Shown in pieces: positions 3 to 11,436 of a stretch of DNA of 14,266 nucleotides. A model generated the notes under the pieces. That model did no database searches, was not told where the DNA came from, and was given only the letters and a program-made list of their open reading frames with translations. Where the stretch lies: assembly GCA_018814265.1 (NCBI GenBank), contig JAHIZU010000206.1, forward strand, positions 1 to 14,266, given 5' to 3'. The stretch is from Candidatus Margulisiibacteriota bacterium. Its GTDB lineage: Bacteria > Margulisbacteria > WOR-1 > O2-12-FULL-45-9. Position 1 is the stretch's first letter, and the number at the start of each line of letters is the position of its first letter. A program made the translations under genes and the position numbers.

Positions 3-1037
3 CAGGCTGTGCTTAATAAGCAGCGCTTGGATTTTAATGATTATCTAGTCCTGCTCTCTAAAACTGCTTCGAATATGCTGGAAGATCTGGCGCTCAAATC
101 CCGGGAGCTGACCTTAAAACACTTTGGCAAAACCATTCTGCTCTATATCCCTCTTTATCTGAACAATGAATGTGATAACAACTGCGTTTACTGTGGTTTC
201 AGCCAGAAATTATCTGAGAAAAGAAAGTCTCTGACGGTTGATGAGGTGTTGGCTGAGGCGGAAATAATTTATCAGAAGGGCTTTCGGCATCTGCTGCTGG
301 TTGCTGGAGAAAAGCGGGACAAAATTACTCTGGTTTATCTAAAAGAGATTATCTCAATGCTGCATGAAAAATTTGAATCGATCTCTCTAGAGATTTTTCC
401 TCTGGAGCAAGGGGAGTACCAGGAACTTTGCCAAGCCGGGGCAGATGGGGTGACAATTTACCAGGAGGCTTATAATAGGGAAGTCTATAAGCAGGTCCAT
501 CCCTGCGGTCCCAAGTCAGATTATGAATCCCGGTTGTTGACGCCGGAGCGCGCAGCCCGGGCTGGTTTATATCGGATCAATATCGGGGCCTTGCTGGGAT
601 TAGGGCAATGGTTTGAACAAGCTGCCTTGCTTGGTCTGCACGCGGCTTATCTTAAGAAAACATTCTGGCAAGCACAGATCGCGGTTTCGTTTCCCAGGCT
701 GCAAGGTTCAGCAGCTGGTTTTAAGCCGATCCATCCGGTTACTGACCAACAGCTGGTGCGGATGATCTGCGCTTTAAGGATCTTCCAACCAACCTTGGGG
801 CTGGTGCTCTCAACCAGGGAAAGCGGAGCGTTAAGGGATAATCTGATTCCACTGGGAATAACCCAAATGAGCGCTGAATCAAAGACCAGTCCAGGTGGTT
901 ATCTTGACGAAACTAAAGCACAAAAACAATTTGAGATCGCTGATCAAAGAAGTTTAGCTGAAATTAGCGCTGCGATCAGGCAACGAGGTTATGATCCAGT
1001 GATGAAAGACTGGGATAAGGAATACATTAGGGGATGA
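3..1037 (+). CDS. thiH: 2-iminoacetate synthase ThiH (5' partial)
   Basis: This is a radical-SAM enzyme that cleaves tyrosine to dehydroglycine (2-iminoacetate) and p-cresol for the thiazole half of thiamine. The radical-SAM CxxxCxxC signature is visible as C-DNN-C-VY-C-GF, about 55 residues in. Downstream blocks typical of ThiH are present: HPCGPKSDYESRLLTPERA, SFPRLQG, a LVLSTRE block and ITQMSAESKTSPGGY. The frame is open from the first bases of the window. A GTG at 9 could be read as a start, but the family is about 370 residues and the visible part is about 344, so roughly 25-30 N-terminal residues probably lie upstream. The stop overlaps the thiE start in an ATGA, implying translational coupling. 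ThiS and ThiG are not in view and may be upstream. Identification is secure; only the start is missing. Confidence 0.95.
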   Translation, partial: QAVLNKQRLDFNDYLVLLSKTASNMLEDLALKSRELTLKHFGKTILLYIPLYLNNECDNNCVYCGFSQKLSEKRKSLTVDEVLAEAEIIYQKGFRHLLLVAGEKRDKITLVYLKEIISMLHEKFESISLEIFPLEQGEYQELCQAGADGVTIYQEAYNREVYKQVHPCGPKSDYESRLLTPERAARAGLYRINIGALLGLGQWFEQAALLGLHAAYLKKTFWQAQIAVSFPRLQGSAAGFKPIHPVTDQQLVRMICALRIFQPTLGLVLSTRESGALRDNLIPLGITQMSAESKTSPGGYLDETKAQKQFEIADQRSLAEISAAIRQRGYDPVMKDWDKEYIRG

Positions 1038-1681
1038 ACCGAAAAGAGCGTTTAGCCAAATTCAAACAAATTGATCTTTATCCGGTAACAAATGAATCAC
1101 TGTCAAATGGCCGGAGTAATTTAGATATCCTGCAAGCAGTTATTGCTGGTGGCGCGAAAATTATTCAGCTGAGAGATAAAAACATTAGCCAGGACGATTT
1201 TTTGGAGCTGGCAAAGAAGTTTAGGGAAATTACAGCCCAAAGCAAGGTTCTTTTGATCATTAATGACCATTTAGATGTTGCTCTAGAGGTTAAAGCAGAT
1301 GGAGTGCATTTGGGCCAGAATGATCTGTTGGCTGCAGCAGCTCGCAAATCCGCGCCGGAGCTCCTGATCGGGGTTTCAACCCACAATGTTGCTGAGGCGG
1401 TTAAAGCTGAGCAGGACGGGGCTGATTATGTAAATATTGGCCCGATCTTTAAAACCCAAACTAAAGATGTTGAGCCGATCGGACCAGAAAGCATTAAACC
1501 AATTGCCGCAAAGATCAAAATCCCCTTTACTGTTATGGGTGGGATAAATTTTAATAATATTGATATGGTACTGGCGCAAGGCGCTCGACATGTCGCGGTT
1601 ATTTCCGCTGTAACGCAGGCTCCAGACATTCAACAGGCCGCCAGTCAGTTGATCAAAAAGATAAATAATTTGCGCCTGTAG
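1034..1681 (+). CDS. thiE: Thiamine phosphate synthase ThiE
   Basis: ThiE couples the thiazole and pyrimidine phosphates to form thiamine phosphate in the cytoplasm. The 215-residue length is normal for this TIM-barrel family. Recognisable blocks in order are: IIQLRDK near residue 43 (pyrimidine pyrophosphate site), LLIINDH with DVALEVKADGVHLGQNDL, IGVSTHN, ADYVNIGPIFKTQTK, and the phosphate-binding VMGGIN near residue 167. The ATG lies in the ATGA overlap with thiH, so the two genes are almost certainly co-transcribed and coupled. A TTGCGC-17-TAAAAT promoter-like sequence for the next unit begins inside the last codons of this gene. Confidence 0.95.
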   Translation: MNRKERLAKFKQIDLYPVTNESLSNGRSNLDILQAVIAGGAKIIQLRDKNISQDDFLELAKKFREITAQSKVLLIINDHLDVALEVKADGVHLGQNDLLAAAARKSAPELLIGVSTHNVAEAVKAEQDGADYVNIGPIFKTQTKDVEPIGPESIKPIAAKIKIPFTVMGGINFNNIDMVLAQGARHVAVISAVTQAPDIQQAASQLIKKINNLRL

Positions 1682-1698: not shown

Positions 1699-1726
1699 GA
1701 GCCTGATTTTGTCAGGGAGGATAATA

Positions 1727-2905
1727 ATGGCTGACGAAGTAAAACGCCAGGTCTATCTAGACCACATGGCTAACACACCGGTTGATCCTCGGGTAATTGA
1801 GGCGATCCTGCCTCATTTAAAAAATACTTATGGCAATCCTTTAAATCTCCATGACTTTGGCCAAAAGACGGCGAAGGCAATAGAAGAGGGGCGACAAAAG
1901 GTGGCAGAGCTTATCGGAGCAACTGCCAAAGAAATCATTTTTACTTCCTGCGGCTCTGAATCTAATAATTTTGCCATTAAAGGGATTGCCAATGCTAATG
2001 AAAAGAAAGGCAAACATATTATTACTTCAGCGATTGAGCATTTTTCTGTGCTCCATCCAGTGAAGGAGCTGGAAAAGCAAGGCTTTAAAGTTACTTATTT
2101 GCCAGTTGATAAAAATGGTCTGATCGATCCGGAAGCCGTTGCCAAAGCGATCACGAACGAAACTATCCTGGTTACTTTAACCCAGGCCAGCAATGAGATT
2201 GGCGCGATCGAGCCGATCAAGGAAATAGGGGCCAAGGTCAAAGAAAAAGGCGTTGTCTTTCATGTGGACGCAGTGCAGTCTGCAGGAACGATACCAGTTG
2301 ATGTTGCCGACCTAAATGTTGATGCGCTGACCTTATCAGCTAATCAATTCTACGGGCCAACAGGCGTAGCTGCTCTTTATTTAAAAAAGGGGACACGGAT
2401 TATTCCTTTTATTCTTGGCGGGACTCAGGAAGAAGGTAAACGGGCAGGAACCCATAACATTGCCGGGATCGTTGGGCTGGGGAAAGCCGCTGAGTTGGCC
2501 AAGACGGAGATGAAGGTTCGCGCTGATAAGCTGGTCCCTTTGCGGGATAAATTGTTAAAGGAATTGCCAAAGAAGATCTCTGATTTTTTTGTGACAGGGC
2601 ATCCAACCCAGCGGCTGCCAAACCATGCCAGCGGCTGTGTAAAGTTCATTGAAGGTGAATCAATGTCCATGCTGCTCAATATGGAAGGTATTGCTGTTTC
2701 CACCGGCTCAGCCTGCGTTTCCAAGGCTTTAAAAGCCTCCCATGTGCTTTTGGCGATCGGTGTTAGTCCTGAGAACGTACATGGTTCATTGGTGTTTTCC
2801 TTGGGTAAAGATAATTCAGCGGCGGATGTGGATTATCTGCTGGAAAAGCTGCCGCCGATCGTCAACCGCCTGCGCGAAATGTCGCCTTTAGGGAAAAGCA
2901 AATAG
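1727..2905 (+). CDS. Cysteine desulfurase-fold protein (NifS/IscS-like) lacking the PLP lysine
   Basis: A full-length 392-residue class V aminotransferase-fold protein that aligns by eye with IscS from end to end. Kept: the EH after IITSAI, the NEIG block, HVDAVQS (PLP-ring Asp and Gln), the GESM block and the STGSACVS loop with the mobile catalytic Cys (C330). Lost: the S-[GA]-H-K-x-YGPKG block reads SANQFYGPTG, so the PLP-Schiff-base Lys is Gln (Q207, codon CAA 2345-2347) and the preceding His is Asn; the SxIRFSLG block reads GSLVFSLG, so the substrate-carboxylate Arg is Val (V356). GGGxERG also reads GGTQEEG. Classical PLP desulfurase chemistry is therefore unlikely. The chosen ATG has AGGGAGG six bases upstream; an in-frame ATG at 1697 sits in the promoter. 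It lies 9 bases before a DsrE2-like gene and shares a unit with tusA, suggesting a role in persulfide relay, for example as scaffold or sulfur acceptor. The function is inference. Confidence 0.85.
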   Translation: MADEVKRQVYLDHMANTPVDPRVIEAILPHLKNTYGNPLNLHDFGQKTAKAIEEGRQKVAELIGATAKEIIFTSCGSESNNFAIKGIANANEKKGKHIITSAIEHFSVLHPVKELEKQGFKVTYLPVDKNGLIDPEAVAKAITNETILVTLTQASNEIGAIEPIKEIGAKVKEKGVVFHVDAVQSAGTIPVDVADLNVDALTLSANQFYGPTGVAALYLKKGTRIIPFILGGTQEEGKRAGTHNIAGIVGLGKAAELAKTEMKVRADKLVPLRDKLLKELPKKISDFFVTGHPTQRLPNHASGCVKFIEGESMSMLLNMEGIAVSTGSACVSKALKASHVLLAIGVSPENVHGSLVFSLGKDNSAADVDYLLEKLPPIVNRLREMSPLGKSK

Positions 2906-2914
2906 GAGTTTGTC

Positions 2915-3385
2915 ATGGAAAAATTTAATATAGTTGTCTTTTCTGGCGACATGGATAAAGTGCTGGCGGCGTTTATTTTAGCCACAACCGCGGCTTCCAT
3001 GAACATGGAAGTTAACATGTTCTTTACTTTCTGGGGGTTAAATGTTTTGCGCAAGAAGAAATTTACCAGCGGCAAGAATATCCTGCAAAAATTGATGAAT
3101 TGGCTGAACAAAAGCGGGGCCAGCCGGTTACCGCTATCCAAATTTAACATGTTGGGTGCTGGTCCGGCCATGATGAAGATCATGATGAAACAGGCTAAAG
3201 TTCCGAGTATTGAAGAATTTCTTCAGCTCGCAAAGGGCCTAGGCATAAAAATGGTTGCCTGCACCACCACTTTCAGTTTTATGGGCTTTACGGAAAAAGA
3301 TTTTATTGATGGCCTCGATTCCTTTGCCGGCGCGGCGACATTTTTGCAGCTGGTCCGCGAAGGCAAGATCAGTTATTTTATTTGA
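2915..3385 (+). CDS. DsrE/DsrF-like (DsrE2-type) sulfur-carrier family protein
   Basis: A soluble 156-residue protein of the DsrE_2 family. Evidence: the N-terminal IVVFSGDMDKVLAAFILA strand-helix, FFTFWGLNVLRK, a Met-rich central GPAMMKIMMKQ segment, and the C-terminal KMVACTTTFSFMG block followed by DFIDG and GAATFL. The only cysteine, C116 in VACTTT, is at the position where DsrE-type proteins carry a persulfide. Family members pass sulfane sulfur to or from TusA-like proteins, and tusA is the next gene. AGGAG at 2904-2908 overlaps the stop of the preceding nifS-like gene and sits 6 bases from this ATG, so the two are likely coupled. The stop codon lies inside the first arm of the palindromic repeat that follows. 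Confidence 0.85.
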   Translation: MEKFNIVVFSGDMDKVLAAFILATTAASMNMEVNMFFTFWGLNVLRKKKFTSGKNILQKLMNWLNKSGASRLPLSKFNMLGAGPAMMKIMMKQAKVPSIEEFLQLAKGLGIKMVACTTTFSFMGFTEKDFIDGLDSFAGAATFLQLVREGKISYFI

Positions 3386-3481: not shown

Positions 3482-3715
3482 ATGAAAGCAGATGAGACTT
3501 TGGATTGTTTTGGGCTGCTGTGCCCCATGCCGATAGTTAAGACAGCGGAGAAGATCAAGGCCATGAGAGTCGGCCAGGTGCTGGAAGTTGACGCGACTGA
3601 TGTGGGGATCAAATCTGATATGCCGGCCTGGTGTAAGGCAACGGGGCAGGAGTACCTGGGGATCGAGGAAAAAGCCGCGGAATATAAAGTTTACGTGAAG
3701 AAGGTAAGGCAATGA
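3482..3715 (+). CDS. tusA: TusA/SirA-family sulfur carrier protein
   Basis: A 77-residue TusA-fold protein that carries a persulfide on the Cys of the CPxP motif and hands sulfur to tRNA thiolation, molybdenum-cofactor or sulfur-oxidation partners. The motif is visible as FGLLCPMPIVKT, with C14 as the acceptor. The second half VGIKSDMPAWCKATGQEYLG matches the family's second strand-helix unit, which commonly reads D-x3-DIPxW. The start is chosen from GGAGG at 3470-3474, seven bases before the ATG; the open frame upstream runs through a palindromic repeat and is not coding. The stop overlaps the following transporter start in an ATGA. With DsrE and the NifS-like protein it forms a likely sulfur relay. 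Confidence 0.93.
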   Translation: MKADETLDCFGLLCPMPIVKTAEKIKAMRVGQVLEVDATDVGIKSDMPAWCKATGQEYLGIEEKAAEYKVYVKKVRQ

Positions 3716-4455
3716 CCTGGATATACACGTTAACAGCGGTATTTATCGTCAGCCTGGTTTCGTTCATCGGGATTCTGACGATCGCGCTTAAGATGGAAGT
3801 CTTAAAAAAGATTGTCATGTTCCTGGTGAGTTTATCAGCCGGAGCATTGTTGGGCGGGGCTTTCTTCCATCTTATCCCTGAAGCTGCGGAGGAATTCGGC
3901 TTTACTTTAAGATTGGGCGTTTTTATTCTTTCCGGGATACTGGTTTTCTTTGCCCTGGAAAAAATAATCTGCTGGCGCCACTGCCACATCCCGACCTCAA
4001 AGGACCATCCCCATCCAGTTGCTATTATGAACCTGATCGGCGACGCTTTTCACAATTTGATCGACGGCGCGATCATTGCGGCTTCATTTCTGGTCAGCTT
4101 CCCGCTAGGCGTCAGCACGACAGTGGCGGTGTTGCTCCATGAGATCCCGCAGGAGATCGGAGATTTTGGGGTTTTGGTCCATGGTGGTTTTGGCCGCTTC
4201 AAAGCGTTGCTGCTAAACTTTGCTTCAGCCCTGACCTCGGTGCTTGGCGCGGTCCTGGTGTTATCCCTGAACGTCAAGGTTGAGACCATTGCCTGGTTCC
4301 TGGTGCCATTTACCGCGGGCGGATTTATCTACATTGCCGGGTCTGACCTGATCCCTGAAATGAAAAAGGACATTGTTCCGCTTAATTCTTTAATTCAGAT
4401 GTTCTTTCTGCTGTTAGGGCTGGCCATCATGCTGGCGCTGGTTGTTTTTGGATAG
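3712..4455 (+). CDS. ZIP family divalent metal transporter
   Basis: A 247-residue inner-membrane ZIP permease, predicted to import Zn2+ or Fe2+. The binuclear metal-site motifs are present: G-DAFHNLIDG in TM4 (H114, N115, D118) and HEIPQEIGDF in TM5 (H143, E144, E148). About eight hydrophobic segments are visible, with a His-rich loop before TM4 (HCHIPTSKDHPHP, residues 90-102) and an HLIPEA segment near residue 53. It overlaps tusA by ATGA, so it is translated with the sulfur genes; Fe-S or Zn demand could explain the link (inference). Its 3' end overlaps the end of the convergent minus-strand gene by 29 bp. Metal specificity cannot be read from the sequence. Confidence 0.92.
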   Translation: MTWIYTLTAVFIVSLVSFIGILTIALKMEVLKKIVMFLVSLSAGALLGGAFFHLIPEAAEEFGFTLRLGVFILSGILVFFALEKIICWRHCHIPTSKDHPHPVAIMNLIGDAFHNLIDGAIIAASFLVSFPLGVSTTVAVLLHEIPQEIGDFGVLVHGGFGRFKALLLNFASALTSVLGAVLVLSLNVKVETIAWFLVPFTAGGFIYIAGSDLIPEMKKDIVPLNSLIQMFFLLLGLAIMLALVVFG

Positions 4456-7093: not shown

Positions 7094-7495
7094 ATGCAGA
7101 TAACAAGAGCCTCTGATTACGCGATCCGCCTGTTGGCCCATCTGGCAGCCGGGGAGGTGGAGACGACAAGCCAAACCTTATCAAATGAACTTGGCGTGCC
7201 TTTGAACCATTTGGCTAAACTGGTCCAGAATCTGGCCCGGCGCGGCTATTTGATCACCCGCAAGGGCAAGGGCGGCGGCTTACGTTTGGCTGTTGACCCT
7301 AAAAAGATCAATCTGGCTCAGGTAATTGAGGCAATTGAAGGCCCGATCATGATCAATAAATGTCTTTTTCACAGTCAAAGCTGCCGCTTCAGCAGAAAGT
7401 GTAAAGTCAGGAAATGTTTGGGCGGAGTGCAGGGCAAGATCCAGGAAATGCTGGCCAGCACAACTATTTTTGACATGGCGCTTCAATATAGCTAA
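7094..7495 (+). CDS. Rrf2 family transcriptional regulator, four-cysteine (Fe-S type)
   Basis: A 133-residue winged-helix regulator beginning with the hallmark MQITRASDYAIRLLAHLA, followed by the recognition region and the wing RKGKGGGLRLA. The sensor segment has C90, C97, C103 and C108 (C-x6-C-x5-C-x4-C), enough for an Fe-S cluster as in IscR, NsrR or RsrR. The first three spacings are closest to NsrR, so nitric oxide or redox sensing is a reasonable guess, but IscR-like or other roles cannot be excluded. It heads a unit with an NrdD-tail protein, a flavoprotein reductase and a ferritin-VIT1 fusion, and its own promoter is covered by a palindrome, implying autoregulation and control of redox and iron genes. 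Confidence 0.92.
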   Translation: MQITRASDYAIRLLAHLAAGEVETTSQTLSNELGVPLNHLAKLVQNLARRGYLITRKGKGGGLRLAVDPKKINLAQVIEAIEGPIMINKCLFHSQSCRFSRKCKVRKCLGGVQGKIQEMLASTTIFDMALQYS

Positions 7496-7511
7496 GAAAG
7501 GGGGTGAATTT

Positions 7512-7808
7512 ATGATACTCGAAGAATTAAATGTCTTTTTGGAGAATAATCCACAAGTAGAATGGGCCCAGGATGATGACGGCACTCTATATCTTAGACA
7601 CTCGGTCTTTGATAAGGAGCACGAAAAGATCAAGATTGAACCCGGGGCGCTAGCCAATCTAACTTCGGAAAAGCTGGAGCAGGTATTGATCGGCGGCCGC
7701 AACGTTGAGCACATTACCCGCGTCACTGGTTATTTCTCAAGGATCTCTGGTTGGAATAAAGGCAAGAAGGGAGAATTAGCAGATAGACATCGAATGAATA
7801 TTTTGTAA
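7512..7808 (+). CDS. Small protein with NrdD-like glycyl-radical C-terminal tail
   Basis: 98 residues. The C-terminal third reads RVTGYFSRISGWNKGKK followed by GELADR (residues 70-92). This resembles the tail of class III (anaerobic) ribonucleotide reductase NrdD, where the RVxGY loop holds the glycyl radical (G73 would be the radical Gly) and a WNxGK segment follows. The zinc CxxC pairs of NrdD and its catalytic barrel are absent. The N-terminal 60 residues (MILEELNVFLENNPQVEWAQ and on) are not recognised. AAGGGGG just upstream supports the ATG at 7512; the frame further upstream overlaps the Rrf2 gene. It could be a spare-part radical subunit comparable in idea to GrcA, or a regulatory relic. 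The family match is by eye and the function unknown. Confidence 0.7.
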   Translation: MILEELNVFLENNPQVEWAQDDDGTLYLRHSVFDKEHEKIKIEPGALANLTSEKLEQVLIGGRNVEHITRVTGYFSRISGWNKGKKGELADRHRMNIL

Positions 7809-7849
7809 TCTACTTGAAAGATAAATATGATTTAGTTAAGATAGGCGAT

Positions 7850-8752
7850 ATGAAGGACTTAATTATTATCGGAGCTGGTCCAGCGGGCATAACCGCTGCG
7901 GTCTACGCTGCCAGAAAAAAGCTGGATTTCGCAGTTATCTCCAGGGATATTGGCGGTCAAACTGCCTGGTCGCTGGAAGTTGAGAATTACACGGGCTATC
8001 AATTCATTCCCGGGCCTGAACTGGCCATGAAGTTCCGCGAGCATTTGGAAAAGTTTGATTTTGAGTTGCGCGAGGGCGAGAGCGTAAAAACAATCGAGAA
8101 AACCGGTCAAATCTTTAAAGTCACTACCACTAAGGGAGATGTTCTCGAAAGCAAGGCAGTTATTGTTGCCACGGGCAAGCGGCCGAAATTACTCGGCGTG
8201 CCGGGCGAAGGAAAGTTTAAGGGCAAAGGCCTGACCTATTGTGCCACCTGCGACGGCCCGCTTTTTACCGGAAAAAACGTCGCAGTGATCGGCGGCGGCA
8301 ATTCCGGGCTGGATGCCACCATGCAGCTGATGCGGCTGGCAAAAAAAGTTTATCTGATCAATAGCGTGGATAAGCTTACCGGTGATCCAATTATGCAGGA
8401 GAGGATCGCTCAGGCTGTAAATGTCGAGGTCATAAATTCAGCCAAAGTCCTGCAAATATCCGGCGAGCAATTTGTTAAGGCGCTCAAGGTTGAGATTAAT
8501 GGCCAGGAACGGGACCTGCCGGTCGAAGGCATTTTTGTGGAAATAGGGCTGGTGCCAAATTCAAAATTCGTTGACCTGGCGGAGAAGAACGAGCGCGGGG
8601 AGATCGTTGTTAACGCCGCAGCAGAAACTTCTGTTGAAGGACTCTTTGCCGCAGGCGATGTTACCAATGTTCCTGAAAAACAGATCATTGTAGCAGGTGG
8701 GGAAGGGGCCAAGGCGACCTTGACGGCTTTTAAATATCTTTCTACCCATTAA
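7850..8752 (+). CDS. Thioredoxin reductase / AhpF-like FAD oxidoreductase
   Basis: A 300-residue flavoprotein disulfide reductase of the low-molecular-weight thioredoxin reductase family. Visible: FAD motif GAGPAG (8-13), redox-active CATC (131-134), nucleotide-binding GGGNSG (148-153), and the C-terminal FAD block GLFAAGDVTN. The HRR residues that read NADPH 2'-phosphate in classical TrxB are missing: after KKVYLI the sequence is NSVDKL. GGQTAWSLEVENYTGY and EIGLVPNSKFV are closer to the AhpF C-terminal half, so NADH or another donor is more likely than NADPH. An in-frame TTG lies upstream at 7814, but the family starts right at the dinucleotide fold, so ATG 7850 is preferred. No thioredoxin or AhpC gene is adjacent. 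Confidence 0.9.
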   Translation: MKDLIIIGAGPAGITAAVYAARKKLDFAVISRDIGGQTAWSLEVENYTGYQFIPGPELAMKFREHLEKFDFELREGESVKTIEKTGQIFKVTTTKGDVLESKAVIVATGKRPKLLGVPGEGKFKGKGLTYCATCDGPLFTGKNVAVIGGGNSGLDATMQLMRLAKKVYLINSVDKLTGDPIMQERIAQAVNVEVINSAKVLQISGEQFVKALKVEINGQERDLPVEGIFVEIGLVPNSKFVDLAEKNERGEIVVNAAAETSVEGLFAAGDVTNVPEKQIIVAGGEGAKATLTAFKYLSTH

Positions 8753-8764
8753 AGGATTTTGATC

Positions 8765-9640
8765 ATGCCCAAAGTTGATGAACAAACACAAAATATTGTA
8801 AAAATATTTCAGCGCAATGAGATAACCGAGTATTTTATCTACGAAAAACTGGCATCCTTGGAAAAGGATCAGAACAATAAAGAGGTTTTGTTAAGAATTT
8901 CTCTAGATGAGCTGCGGCATTATGGTGTTTGGAAAGTTTATAGTGGCGGAGATGTTGCTCCTAGCCGTTTTAAGATCTGGTGGTATGTGTCCATTGCCAG
9001 AATTTTTGGCGTAACTTTTGGGATAAAATTGATGGAATCAGGAGAAGAGGGGGCCCAAGCTGCTTATGGCGAAATTGCGAAAGTGATCCCTGAGGCGGAC
9101 AGTATCAAAAACGATGAAAACCAGCATGAAAATGAACTGATCGCCATGATCGATGAGGAAAGATTGAAATATATTGGTTCAGTGGTCCTGGGGTTAAACG
9201 ACGCACTAGTTGAGCTGACGGGAACTCTGGCAGGCTTAACCTTTGCTTTGCAAAATGCCAAGTTAGTCGGGGTTGCGGGTTTGATCACAGGGATTGCTGC
9301 TTCGCTTTCTATGGCAGCCTCAGAATATCTTTCAACCAAGGTGGAGGAAGGGGAGAAGAACCCGCTTAAAGCTTCTTTTTATACTGGCACGGCTTATGTA
9401 TTAGCGGTTACAGTCTTGATCTTGCCGTTCTTATTATTGGGCAATCCTTTTATCTCATTAGGCCTGGCGTTGACCAGCGCCATCCTTTTGATCCTGGTCT
9501 TTACTTTTTACTTTTCGGTTGTTAGAGGAGTTTCGTTTAAGAAGCGTTTTACGGAAATGGTTGTTATAAGCCTGGGAGTAGCTGGCCTAAGTTTTATTAT
9601 CGGCCTGGCGGTCAGGCAATTTTTGGGAATAGATATTTAG
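8765..9640 (+). CDS. Ferritin-like/VIT1 fusion (MbfA-type iron exporter)
   Basis: A 291-residue two-domain membrane protein. Residues 1 to about 135 are a rubrerythrin-like di-iron domain with E19, ExxH at 49-52 (ELRH) and ExxH at 118-121 (ENQH). Residues from about 137 form a CCC1/VIT1 transporter with GLNDALVELTGTLAGLTFAL, LITGIAASLSMAASEYLS and about five membrane helices. This arrangement matches MbfA and related proteins, which export iron and protect from peroxide. GGA at 8754-8756 favours ATG 8765; another ATG six bases upstream is possible. It follows the reductase gene by 12 bases, so it belongs to the Rrf2 unit. Its stop overlaps the end of the convergent ferritin-like gene by 4 bp. 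Confidence 0.92.
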   Translation: MPKVDEQTQNIVKIFQRNEITEYFIYEKLASLEKDQNNKEVLLRISLDELRHYGVWKVYSGGDVAPSRFKIWWYVSIARIFGVTFGIKLMESGEEGAQAAYGEIAKVIPEADSIKNDENQHENELIAMIDEERLKYIGSVVLGLNDALVELTGTLAGLTFALQNAKLVGVAGLITGIAASLSMAASEYLSTKVEEGEKNPLKASFYTGTAYVLAVTVLILPFLLLGNPFISLGLALTSAILLILVFTFYFSVVRGVSFKKRFTEMVVISLGVAGLSFIIGLAVRQFLGIDI

Positions 9641-10167
9641 CCTTCAACGATCCAGCGTTCTTCTTTTTTAAACCAGTCGCCGGGATTGTTTAAGTATTGT
9701 AAGGTATCTTCCAGGATATCATAATGTTCCCTTTCTTCCTGGGCCAGGGCAGCGTAGAATTTTTTAGTGGTTTCATCACTGTTTTCTTTGGATATTGTGT
9801 CGTAGAGGTTGTAGCTGTCACGCTCCAGGCCTTCAGCAACTACATAAGCCTTGTTAATATCGGACGGGGTCTTGAATTTCATGTTCAGATCGTTTTTGAG
9901 TTTCAGGAGGATCGGTCTCAGCAATTCTTCTTTCTTGGGCGGGATGGCAACGCCTTTGAGCCAGTCGCTTTTTAGTTTGCTTTCGCCGGTTAAATTCTTA
10001 TAAAACTCGGTTATTTTAGCTAAATGCTCGGCCTCTCTGTCAGCTAAGCTTAACAGGGTAGCCTGGGCCAGGGGGTTGCTGGTTTTTGCGGCAGACCCGG
10101 AATAGAAGTCGTAACCATTTTTCTCCAGTTCGATCGCCAGCTTGGTGTCCGCAATAAGATTGTTCAT
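9637..10167 (-). CDS. Ferritin-like (rubrerythrin-type) di-iron protein without rubredoxin domain
   Basis: 176 residues in a four-helix bundle pattern with two E...ExxH half-sites: AIELEKNGYDFY and DREAEH (E15, E45, H48), then EGLERDSYNLYD and EEREHYDILED. There is no C-terminal CxxC pair, so it is a sulerythrin/ferritin-like protein and not a full rubrerythrin. GGAGGTG (10180-10174) lies six bases before the ATG at 10167, which decides the start over a GNN-frame extension to 10215. It is transcribed divergently from the superoxide reductase unit and converges on the ferritin-VIT1 gene, so three di-iron proteins sit within 2.7 kb. Likely role: peroxide reduction or iron binding. Confidence 0.88.
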   Translation of the reverse strand: MNNLIADTKLAIELEKNGYDFYSGSAAKTSNPLAQATLLSLADREAEHLAKITEFYKNLTGESKLKSDWLKGVAIPPKKEELLRPILLKLKNDLNMKFKTPSDINKAYVVAEGLERDSYNLYDTISKENSDETTKKFYAALAQEEREHYDILEDTLQYLNNPGDWFKKEERWIVEG

Positions 10168-10186
10168 TTTGTGCACCTCCAGCTGG

Positions 10187-10215
10187 ATTTTAGCAAGGTA
10201 AGGGGAAATAGGCAA
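10187..10215 (-). promoter_or_regulatory. Putative promoter of the ferritin-like gene
   Basis: On the minus strand: TTGCCT (10215-10210), 17 bases, TAAAAT (10192-10187). Transcription would start near 10180, right at the GGAGGTG ribosome site. Confidence 0.5.
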
Positions 10216-10226
10216 GGTGGAACAAG

Positions 10227-10255
10227 TTGAGCAATGATAATGGATGGTGTAAGAT
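10227..10255 (+). promoter_or_regulatory. Putative promoter of the dfx-rubredoxin-rbr unit
   Basis: TTGAGC (10227-10232), 17 bases, TAAGAT (10250-10255), with GGAGG (10271-10275) seven bases before the ATG at 10283. It is back-to-back with the ferritin-like promoter; the two -35 boxes are 11 bases apart, which would permit joint control. No copy of the AATAGGTA operator is seen here. Confidence 0.5.
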
Positions 10256-10282
10256 TATTAAGGGTAAACAGGAGGTAATATC

Positions 10283-10672
10283 ATGGTAAATGTAGGACAG
10301 CAGTTAGAAGTTTATAAATGCGGGGTTTGTGGCAATATTGTTGAGGTTGTCCATGTTGGTGGCGGGGAACTGGTTTGTTGTGACCAGCCGATGATATTGC
10401 AGAAGGAAAACACCGTTGACGCGGCAAAAGAGAAGCATGTCCCGGTTATTGAAAAGAACGATAAGGGGATTTTGGTTAAGGTCGGAACTGTGGCTCATCC
10501 CATGGAAGATAAACATTATATTGAATGGATAGAAGTTATTTCTGACGGCAGGTCCTGTAGAAAGTTCCTTAAACCAGGCCAGAAGCCTGAAGCCCATTTT
10601 GGCGCGAAATCAGCGGATATCATCGTTAGGGCATACTGCAATCTCCACGGGTTATGGATGGTCAAGGCTTAA
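10283..10672 (+). CDS. dfx: Desulfoferrodoxin (superoxide reductase, two-iron type)
   Basis: This 129-residue cytoplasmic enzyme reduces superoxide to hydrogen peroxide with electrons from rubredoxin. The N-terminal desulforedoxin centre has C13, C16, C32 and C33 (YKCGVCG and LVCCDQPM). The catalytic iron ligands are H52 (in EKHVPV, which also carries the conserved E50-K51), H72, H78, C119 and H122 (AYCNLHG). All expected ligands are present, so it should be active. Length is typical of two-iron desulfoferrodoxins. The ribosome site GGAGG is strong. Rubredoxin and rubrerythrin follow, forming a complete superoxide-to-water pathway. Confidence 0.97.
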
Positions 10673-10677
10673 ATGTT

Positions 10678-10842
10678 ATGAATCAAAAGTATGAATGTCT
10701 AATTTGCGGTTATATTTATGATCCGGAGAAAGGGGATCCTGATTCTGGTGTTGCACCAGGAATGGCTTTTGAGGCAATTCCTGACACCTGGGTCTGTCCG
10801 ATCTGCGGGGCGGCTAAGGACCAGTTTGAAAAGGTGGGCTAA
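10678..10842 (+). CDS. Rubredoxin
   Basis: A 54-residue electron carrier with a single Fe(Cys)4 centre: C7-LI-C10-G and C40-PI-C43-G, with conserved [15 protein letters not shown] and PDTWVCP. It should feed electrons to the superoxide reductase upstream and the rubrerythrin downstream. ATG 10678 fits the family length; an in-frame ATG at 10654 lies inside dfx. The start is 5 bases after the dfx stop and has no strong ribosome site, so translation is probably coupled to dfx. Confidence 0.97.
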
Positions 10843-10857
10843 GGAAAGGAGAAAACA

Positions 10858-11436
10858 ATGGTAAAAAGTTTAAAGGGATCTAAAACAGAGAAAAATCTTC
10901 TGGCGTCTTTTGCCGGGGAGTCCCAGGCCAGGAACCGCTACACCTATTTTGCCAGCGTGGCTAAGAAAGCCGGCTATGAACAGATAGCGGCGATCTTTTT
11001 GGAGACAGCGGAGAATGAGAAGGAGCATGCTAAGCGCTTTTTCAATTTACTGGAGGGTGGGGATGTTGCAATAACCGCTTCTTATCCAGCCGGGGTGGTC
11101 GGCACGACTGAAGAAAATCTTCTTGAAGCAGCCAATGGCGAAAAGCTGGAGTGGACCAAGCTCTATCTGGATGCGGAAAATGCTGCGCGGGAGGAGGGGT
11201 TTGAAGAGATCGCTGTCCAATTCAAGGAGATCGCTGAGGTTGAGGAAGAGCATGAGAAAAGATATCGTAAGCTCCTGCAAAATTTGAAAGAAAAAACTGT
11301 TTTCAAAAAGGATAAGGTTGTTAAATGGAAGTGCCGCAATTGCGGTTATGTGCACGAAGGCAAGGAAGCTCCGGATAAGTGTCCGGCCTGTGACCACCCA
11401 ACGGCATATTACGAGCTGTTAGCTGAAAATTACTAA
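10858..11436 (+). CDS. rbr: Rubrerythrin
   Basis: A 192-residue peroxide reductase. The N-terminal di-iron bundle shows E21, E54-x-x-H57, E95 and E129-x-x-H132; the C-terminal rubredoxin-like domain has C159-RN-C162 and C175-PA-C178. MVKSLKGSKTEKNLLASFAGES is the standard start of the family, supported by AAAGGAG just upstream. It removes the peroxide made by superoxide reductase, taking electrons via rubredoxin. The stop overlaps the arsC ATG by one base (TAATG), coupling it to the metal/arsenic genes. Confidence 0.97.
   Translation: MVKSLKGSKTEKNLLASFAGESQARNRYTYFASVAKKAGYEQIAAIFLETAENEKEHAKRFFNLLEGGDVAITASYPAGVVGTTEENLLEAANGEKLEWTKLYLDAENAAREEGFEEIAVQFKEIAEVEEEHEKRYRKLLQNLKEKTVFKKDKVVKWKCRNCGYVHEGKEAPDKCPACDHPTAYYELLAENY

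Follow-up and report, generated by a model that had tools for sequence, protein, structure and literature searches.

A gene in a 14,266-nucleotide stretch of DNA from a Candidatus Margulisiibacteriota bacterium (contig JAHIZU010000206.1; hereafter the window) encodes a cysteine desulfurase homologue that has lost the pyridoxal phosphate (PLP) lysine. It belongs to a widespread bacterial group of such proteins that is under purifying selection and is encoded beside the sulfur-carrier genes tusA and dsrE2 and often beside iscU. NifS/IscS-type proteins lacking the PLP lysine are here termed K-less, and family positions are numbered by Escherichia coli IscS. Since the catalytic lysine is lost and sulfur-carrier genes adjoin, the K-less protein probably relays sulfur rather than making it. 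The window protein most likely acts as a PLP-independent persulfide relay or docking platform that links TusA and DsrE2 to IscU, a reading to which about an even chance is given. In such a relay, sulfane sulfur would be carried by TusA and DsrE2, loaded onto Cys330, which sits on a loop that has turned basic, and passed on to IscU for Fe-S assembly; in the window's genome (G000), the IscU partner would be the only one found, which adjoins a canonical NifS gene. This reading draws on gene order and on reported properties of IscS, IscU, TusA and H2S, from which we infer the sulfur transfer, its direction and the Fe-S cluster as its product; the direction from TusA to the K-less protein is assumed, and is the opposite of the usual flow from IscS to TusA. 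The features concerned are listed in Table 1.

Table 1. Positions of genes, sites and codons in the window
Feature	Position	Strand	Basis
thiH (2-iminoacetate synthase)	9..1037	+	profile match; upstream, co-directional
thiE (thiamine phosphate synthase)	1034..1681	+	profile match; upstream, co-directional
Ribosome site GGGAGG preceding ATG 1727	1715..1720	+	sequence
K-less NifS/IscS homologue (putative pseudo-desulfurase), 392 aa	1727..2905	+	translation; profile match; AlphaFold2 model, pLDDT 93
His105 codon (IscS His104), retained	2039..2041	+	alignment
Asp181 codon (IscS Asp180), retained	2267..2269	+	alignment
Asn206-Gln207 replacing His205-Lys206	2342..2347	+	alignment to IscS
Mobile-loop Cys330, codon TGC (IscS Cys328)	2714..2716	+	kept by all family members examined
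Lys333, basic residue acquired in Cys loop	2723..2725	+	R/K in 88/92 bacterial K-less
Lys336, acquired in Cys loop	2732..2734	+	K in 90/92 bacterial K-less; E/D in 38/41 canonical
Val356 (codon GTG) replacing substrate carboxylate Arg354	2792..2794	+	alignment to IscS
DsrE2-like protein, family Cys kept (ACTTT)	2915..3385	+	PF13686
TusA, Cys of CPMP kept	3482..3715	+	PF01206
ZIP-family metal transporter, overlapping tusA stop	3712..4455	+	ORF list, Pfam

Translation of the gene yields 392 residues with no inner stop; a second in-frame ATG lies upstream at 1697. The protein has the IscS fold at full length, is 56% identical to the genome's own canonical NifS (G000:C8) and scores 505.3 bits against the NCBIfam NifS profile TIGR03402, below its cut-off of 530.75. 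Its AlphaFold2 model has a mean pLDDT of 93, falling below 50 at residues 332-334, directly after Cys330, and finds its best PDB matches in human NFS1, Archaeoglobus fulgidus IscS and E. coli IscS.

The active-site replacements are those that the original prediction had claimed: Gln207 (CAA, 2345-2347) stands in the place of the PLP lysine (IscS Lys206), Asn206 (AAT, 2342-2344) in that of His205 and Val356 in that of Arg354, with the mobile-loop Cys330 and the PLP-contact residues Asp181 and Gln184 (IscS Gln183) retained. Asn156 and Ser204 (IscS Asn155 and Ser203) are also kept in the window protein, and IscS Thr76 is replaced by Ser77. The same pattern recurs among the best 120 of 7,999 protein matches (the window protein itself is one of them). 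None of the 120 has the lysine and every one retains the Cys, the lysine site being Gln in 86, Leu in 16, Glu in 7, Met in 4, Ser in 3, Thr in 2, Ala in 1 and Gly in 1. Within these best 120 of 7,999, the Arg354 site holds Val in 103, Leu in 16 and a gap in 1, with Arg in 0 of 119 readable proteins, and His104, Asp180 and Cys328 are each present in 120/120. At the other PLP-site positions, 81 of 101 K-less locus rows have Ala for Gln183, 75 a changed Ser203 and 71 a changed Asn155. A Gln-specific family was rejected, the lysine site being Q, L, M, A, G, S, T, E, P, R or, in archaea, D. A clade with Gln at this site that co-occurs with DsrE and TusA had been predicted; the clade exists as a lysine-less one, with TusA and, less often, DsrE2, but its residue is not always Gln. 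In E. coli IscS, the K206A variant is described as having no desulfurase activity with some PLP still bound, and R354K as remaining active (PMC9978102). Judged by the residues, PLP chemistry has likely been lost in the K-less protein, for which a normal PLP-lysine desulfurase cycle should be out of reach, and we infer that the window protein would be without desulfurase activity.

K-less genes that keep the Cys account for at least 74 of the 80 best loci in a genome-contig scan, the remaining six holding a canonical gene only. Among the matches listed, which set a lower bound on the phyla represented, K-less loci occur in Margulisbacteria/Saganbacteria, Dehalococcoidia and other Chloroflexi, Deltaproteobacteria, anammox Planctomycetes (Brocadia, Scalindua, Kuenenia, Jettenia), Aminicenantes, Nitrospirae, Elusimicrobia, WOR-3, Schekmanbacteria and others. 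In a set of 57 related genomes, at least nine, the window's among them, carry the gene, distant matches without sequence in hand being left unclassed. In anammox genomes, a NifS-like domain at 42-44% identity to the window protein also forms part of long open frames, of 1,136-1,154 aa (G061:C47, G062:C19 and G063:C150).

The window gene is part of a tightly packed series, thiH-thiE-(K-less)-dsrE2-tusA-zip; a frequent order elsewhere is (K-less)-iscU-(zinc ribbon)-dsrE2-tusA. The window's DsrE2-like protein scores 161.4 against PF13686 (cut-off 25) and 86.8 against NF047629 (cut-off 210), and its TusA (motif GLLCPMP) passes PF01206 with 77.9 bits (cut-off 28.6) and falls below the narrower NCBIfam model NF001423 (51.4, cut-off 78). 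Across loci, each of the two proteins retains its Cys in 90% of rows or more. Neighbours on the same strand within 3 kb were counted in two sets, with canonical genes for comparison taken from near relatives. Exclusion of loci with less than 2.5 kb downstream reduced the first set from 79 to 59 K-less and from 41 to 38 canonical loci, and the second from 39 to 37 K-less, its 26 canonical loci being unchanged; the first set omits L033-L035 and L045, whose contigs are duplicated as L171, L172, L175 and L177, and the second omits L258. The second set, centred on Dehalococcoidia (a 245-genome draw around G058 that includes G070, recorded as Deltaproteobacteria), covers part of the matches and is not independent of the first, because 10 of its 65 NifS-like rows repeat first-set proteins. 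TusA adjoins 48/59 K-less versus 1/38 canonical genes in the first set and 32/37 versus 1/26 in the second, and DsrE2 26/59 versus 1/38 and 27/37 versus 2/26, as counted with TusA, DsrE2 and zinc-ribbon models whose seeds were taken from K-less loci and are biased toward them; Fisher values on these counts are not probabilities, because the loci are related. Where a canonical gene has TusA or DsrE2 nearby (G005, L234, L235), a K-less gene stands in tandem with it. IscU was rejected as the defining partner: it adjoins 41/59 K-less and 36/37 K-less genes in the two sets, but also 33/38 and 19/26 canonical ones, and it is therefore TusA, not IscU, that separates the two groups. IscU rows by K-less genes keep the CGD, FGC and HCS motifs in 81/82; LPPxK proved a weak, non-exclusive IscU signature (10/82 rows near K-less versus 26/45 near canonical genes).

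For the nine Margulisbacteria, Pfam searches agree with the seed-model counts. Within the class set of 31 genomes (G000-G030), these searches find both TusA and DsrE2 adjoining the K-less gene in 9/9 Margulisbacteria; by the neighbour counts of the first set, IscU adjoins it in 3/9. Because stand-alone TusA genes apart from the K-less gene are found in the same set (G001, G002, G025, G028 and G029), TusA occurs beyond K-less genomes, and what is confined is its adjacency to the K-less gene; nine further TusA matches fall within open frames 699-903 aa long. Other DsrE2 matches in the 31 genomes comprise stand-alone genes in G025 and G006 (the latter breaking off), weak second matches (G015, G021) and segments of long proteins (G012, G022). 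The G025 dsrE2-tusA pair stands at a contig start and was predicted to have a K-less tail upstream, but the 31 bases that precede dsrE2 do not resemble one; no K-less gene was seen beside the broken-off dsrE2 of G006. Two small genes recur at these loci. One encodes a 61-89 aa protein with zinc-ribbon-like Cys pairs (identified by eye), usually between iscU and dsrE2 (e.g. L036), and is present at 17/59 and 31/37 K-less loci of the first and second sets by the same K-less-seeded models; the other, of ~183 aa (cluster c24), directly follows the K-less gene in Planctomycetes, several of them anammox (L055, L063, L067, L073, L076, L084, L095). Ten neighbour families were sought within 3 kb, and none was found at six K-less loci (L047, L054, L057 of Scalindua, L059, L069 of Brocadia pituitae and L110); at L086, rubrerythrin was the only one.

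Bacterial K-less proteins appear to share an origin with archaeal forms, in trees rooted on E. coli IscS. With 12 active-site columns removed, FastTree united 92 bacterial and 18 archaeal K-less proteins against 41 canonical ones with support of 0.999 (0.85 for the bacterial group alone); with all columns, support was 1.0 for the union and 0.14 for the bacterial group alone. An iteration-limited IQ-TREE analysis of 49 taxa gave bootstrap values of 100 for bacterial K-less (n = 27), 100 for archaeal (n = 5) and 83 for their union, within which no canonical sequence fell. The union is likely, not certain, because A. fulgidus IscS, when it was the single archaeal row of an earlier tree, fell outside the K-less proteins once active-site columns were removed. 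The window protein likely belongs to an ancient lysine-less IscS/NifS branch that also holds A. fulgidus IscS. In 119 of the 120 best-listed matches of the latter, its own sequence among them, the lysine site is Asp; the exception is the engineered D199K protein.

This relationship bears on the possibility that the K-less protein is a scaffold of the A. fulgidus type, in which Cys330 would ligate a [2Fe-2S] cluster on IscU, free sulfide would supply the sulfur with no passage of persulfide, and TusA and DsrE2 would serve otherwise. The common clade and the many K-less genes that adjoin IscU are consistent with such a role, as are the structure and reported inactivity of the archaeal homologue (PMC7585200) and the description of sulfide supplying E. 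coli IscU under anaerobic conditions when IscS is missing (PMC13015791). However, it is TusA that sets the two groups of loci apart, and it is present even in the window, where no iscU lies beside the K-less gene; a pure sulfide route needs no TusA, and the scaffold role is considered unlikely.

The original prediction advised looking for a normal desulfurase elsewhere in the genome, and G000 (80.5% complete) does encode one canonical NifS, followed by the sole IscU found, an MnmA-like gene (by eye) and NadA; no SufB/D match was found in this 80.5%-complete genome, and its only TusA is that of the window. Canonical NifS was further confirmed in 10 of 16 chosen K-less genomes and not found in five, the matches of G061 being left unclassed; the idea that K-less genomes as a rule have no normal desulfurase was rejected on the strength of these ten. 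A PF00266 search covered nine chosen genomes, in seven of which matches of at least 54 bits were typed by residue or NCBIfam. No intact NifS/SufS besides the K-less protein was found in G029 (90% complete), G058 (which carries a NifS-like fragment), G059, G066, G070, G071 and G140, which is weak evidence because completeness is not given for most of these genomes and they are mostly drafts. G030 has a SufS-like protein and G057 a canonical NifS, and SufB/D matches occur in G059 and G070 only among the K-less genomes checked. The K-less protein might instead be a pseudoenzyme subunit or regulator of canonical NifS, as a heterodimer partner or sulfur recipient that would steer NifS to TusA. The coexistence of both proteins in G000 and in the ten confirmed genomes would suit this arrangement, as would the canonical nifS genes a few genes away from the K-less gene in G005 and at six loci (L233-L238), but the seven genomes without a detected intact NifS/SufS, drafts as most are, count against it, and it is judged quite unlikely.

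A thiamine link in the window's lineage is conceivable, with thi genes immediately upstream of the window's K-less gene; in G020, too, a thiH-like gene (by eye) precedes the K-less gene. Sulfur could flow in the reverse direction or elsewhere: the K-less protein would serve as a docking hub where TusA is loaded, either for the thiolation of tRNA or, in this lineage, for making the thiazole of thiamine, much as E. coli IscS is reported to supply TusA (PMC2854127). Such a hub is decidedly improbable: without desulfurase chemistry the obvious primary sulfur source is missing, thi genes (by eye) occur in only two of nine Margulisbacteria neighbourhoods, and IscU is the more general neighbour.

Other genes of the window lie farther downstream. 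An Rrf2-family regulator (7094-7495) is upstream of an NrdD-like piece and of a gene resembling thioredoxin reductase (7814-8752); 16/38 canonical nifS genes likewise have an Rrf2 gene within 3 kb. The NrdD-like piece (7470-7808; 112 aa as called) matches the C-terminal end of NrdD only (profile positions 548-581 of 581), resembles its glycyl-radical end by eye and is perhaps a stand-alone radical domain. Positions 9637-11436 hold, by eye, an oxygen-defence run of rubrerythrin-like (minus strand), desulfoferrodoxin-like, rubredoxin-like and second rubrerythrin genes.

The Cys loop of bacterial K-less proteins has turned basic. IscS position 331 is Arg or Lys in 88/92 of them, as opposed to Gly in 34/41 canonical proteins, and Lys336 (IscS position 334, six residues past the Cys) is the sole lysine kept in at least 95% of the 92, present in 0/41 canonical rows; archaeal K-less proteins have Lys at 331 in 18/18 and Glu or Gln at 334. 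The protein could conceivably still be a PLP enzyme, an altered desulfurase or lyase whose Schiff-base lysine has moved to this loop (Lys333 or Lys336). Conservation of Lys336, the mobility of the loop suggested by low pLDDT at 332-334, and retention of Asp181 and His105 (in the window also of Gln184, Ser204 and Asn156) would agree with a relocated lysine. It is nevertheless highly improbable, given that Arg354 is missing from every K-less row read, that Gln183, Ser203 and Asn155 are replaced in most of the 101 rows, and that archaeal relatives have Glu or Gln at the Lys336 site.

Purifying selection acts on the family, with a median dN/dS of 0.08 and a maximum of 0.14 in 81 K-less pairs with dS below 1.5, taken from the 160 most similar pairs, which are 70-97% identical and in some cases repeat a contig. 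The gene was held from the outset to be intact and not simply decaying, and this is upheld by its uninterrupted frame, its ribosome site, the low dN/dS and the family-wide losses; a lysine codon at 2345-2347, named at that time as counter-evidence, is not what is read there, and the best 120 listed proteins are likewise without Lys. Sequencing error or gene decay, for which no supporting point was found, can be dismissed, with identical losses in the best 120 listed proteins and dN/dS ~0.08.

For the persulfide relay between TusA/DsrE2 and IscU, the Fe-S step is the weakest in the window, because iscU is not adjacent there and adjoins in only three of nine Margulisbacteria. Several observations count against the relay as a whole: six K-less loci lack all neighbour families sought, DsrE2 is beside only 26/59 genes, and contact residues of E. 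coli IscS with TusA are not kept and lend it no support, being no K-less marker either (Trp45 in 0/101 K-less and 0/40 canonical rows; Arg237 in 4/101 versus 15/40). The DsrE2B of Metallosphaera cuprina is described as unreactive with any sulfur compound tested (PMC4175335), which also counts against a relay. A repurposed persulfide acceptor, a scaffold and a partner-binding pseudoenzyme had been proposed together in the original prediction; all three are compatible with the findings. What the analysis adds to that prediction is that a lysine-less IscS was already known from A. fulgidus, that IscU is commonly adjacent elsewhere, and that the Cys loop is basic.

More tentatively, the K-less operon may represent a second, cysteine-desulfurase-independent Fe-S machine, ancient and shared by many bacterial phyla and archaea, in which lysine-less IscS would be an obligate persulfide relay from TusA/DsrE2 to a dedicated IscU, and which in some anaerobes would be the only such machine; this is possible rather than probable. 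Many K-less genes are named 'cysteine desulfurase' in their sources, and are thereby credited with making sulfur from cysteine. If K-less proteins relay outside sulfur, they would provide a conserved, testable gene set and bear on the routes by which sulfur from sources other than cysteine reaches Fe-S assembly in anaerobes; the factors that direct sulfide in Methanococcus are called unknown in PMC7585200, and the cluster-making route of a Thermococcus strain without desulfurase is described as unclear in PMC12442378.

Lysine-less IscS is already known, from archaea; a full-text literature search, with most subscription papers outside its scope, found no report on bacterial K-less IscS, on the order of its genes with TusA/DsrE2 or on the loop signature, and the bacterial clade, its operon and its Cys-loop signature appear to be unreported. 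Among the closest known counterparts is A. fulgidus IscS, described as inactive (Lys to Asp), yet contributing a Cys that ligates the [2Fe-2S] cluster of IscU (PMC7585200); this protein would become one member of a large clade and not a curiosity. A. fulgidus IscS2 (PDB 4eb5, 4eb7, 4hvk; D199K mutant 4r5f) resembles the window protein in its changes (HK to ND, Arg to Leu), its retained loop Cys and its fold (4eb5_A, Foldseek TM 0.94/0.97, 46% identity), but has Asp instead of Gln and no lysine at the Lys336 site. Methanosarcina acetivorans IscS1 (MA0808), likened here by its description, is also reported to lack the essential lysine and is clustered with iscU1 and four further neighbour genes called function-unknown (PMC7585200). 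In the rhd-tusA-dsrE2 clusters of sulfur oxidizers, DsrE2 adjoins TusA as in the window, but these clusters are described as tied to Dsr or Hdr-like oxidation genes and not to an IscS homologue (PMC4175335). The minimal MIS system (MisS-MisU) is a bare IscS/IscU-like pair whose MisS is listed among cysteine desulfurases (PMC12442378), and is set beside K-less forms by that description only. E. coli IscS with IscU and TusA (3lvj, 3lvl), and human NFS1-ISCU, share the fold, Cys loop and partner types of the window protein; E. coli IscS is reported to bind IscU and TusA at separate sites and to pass sulfur to TusA (PMC2854127). Unlike the window protein, however, it is an active PLP enzyme with Lys206 and Arg354, in which IscS is the donor and TusA the acceptor.
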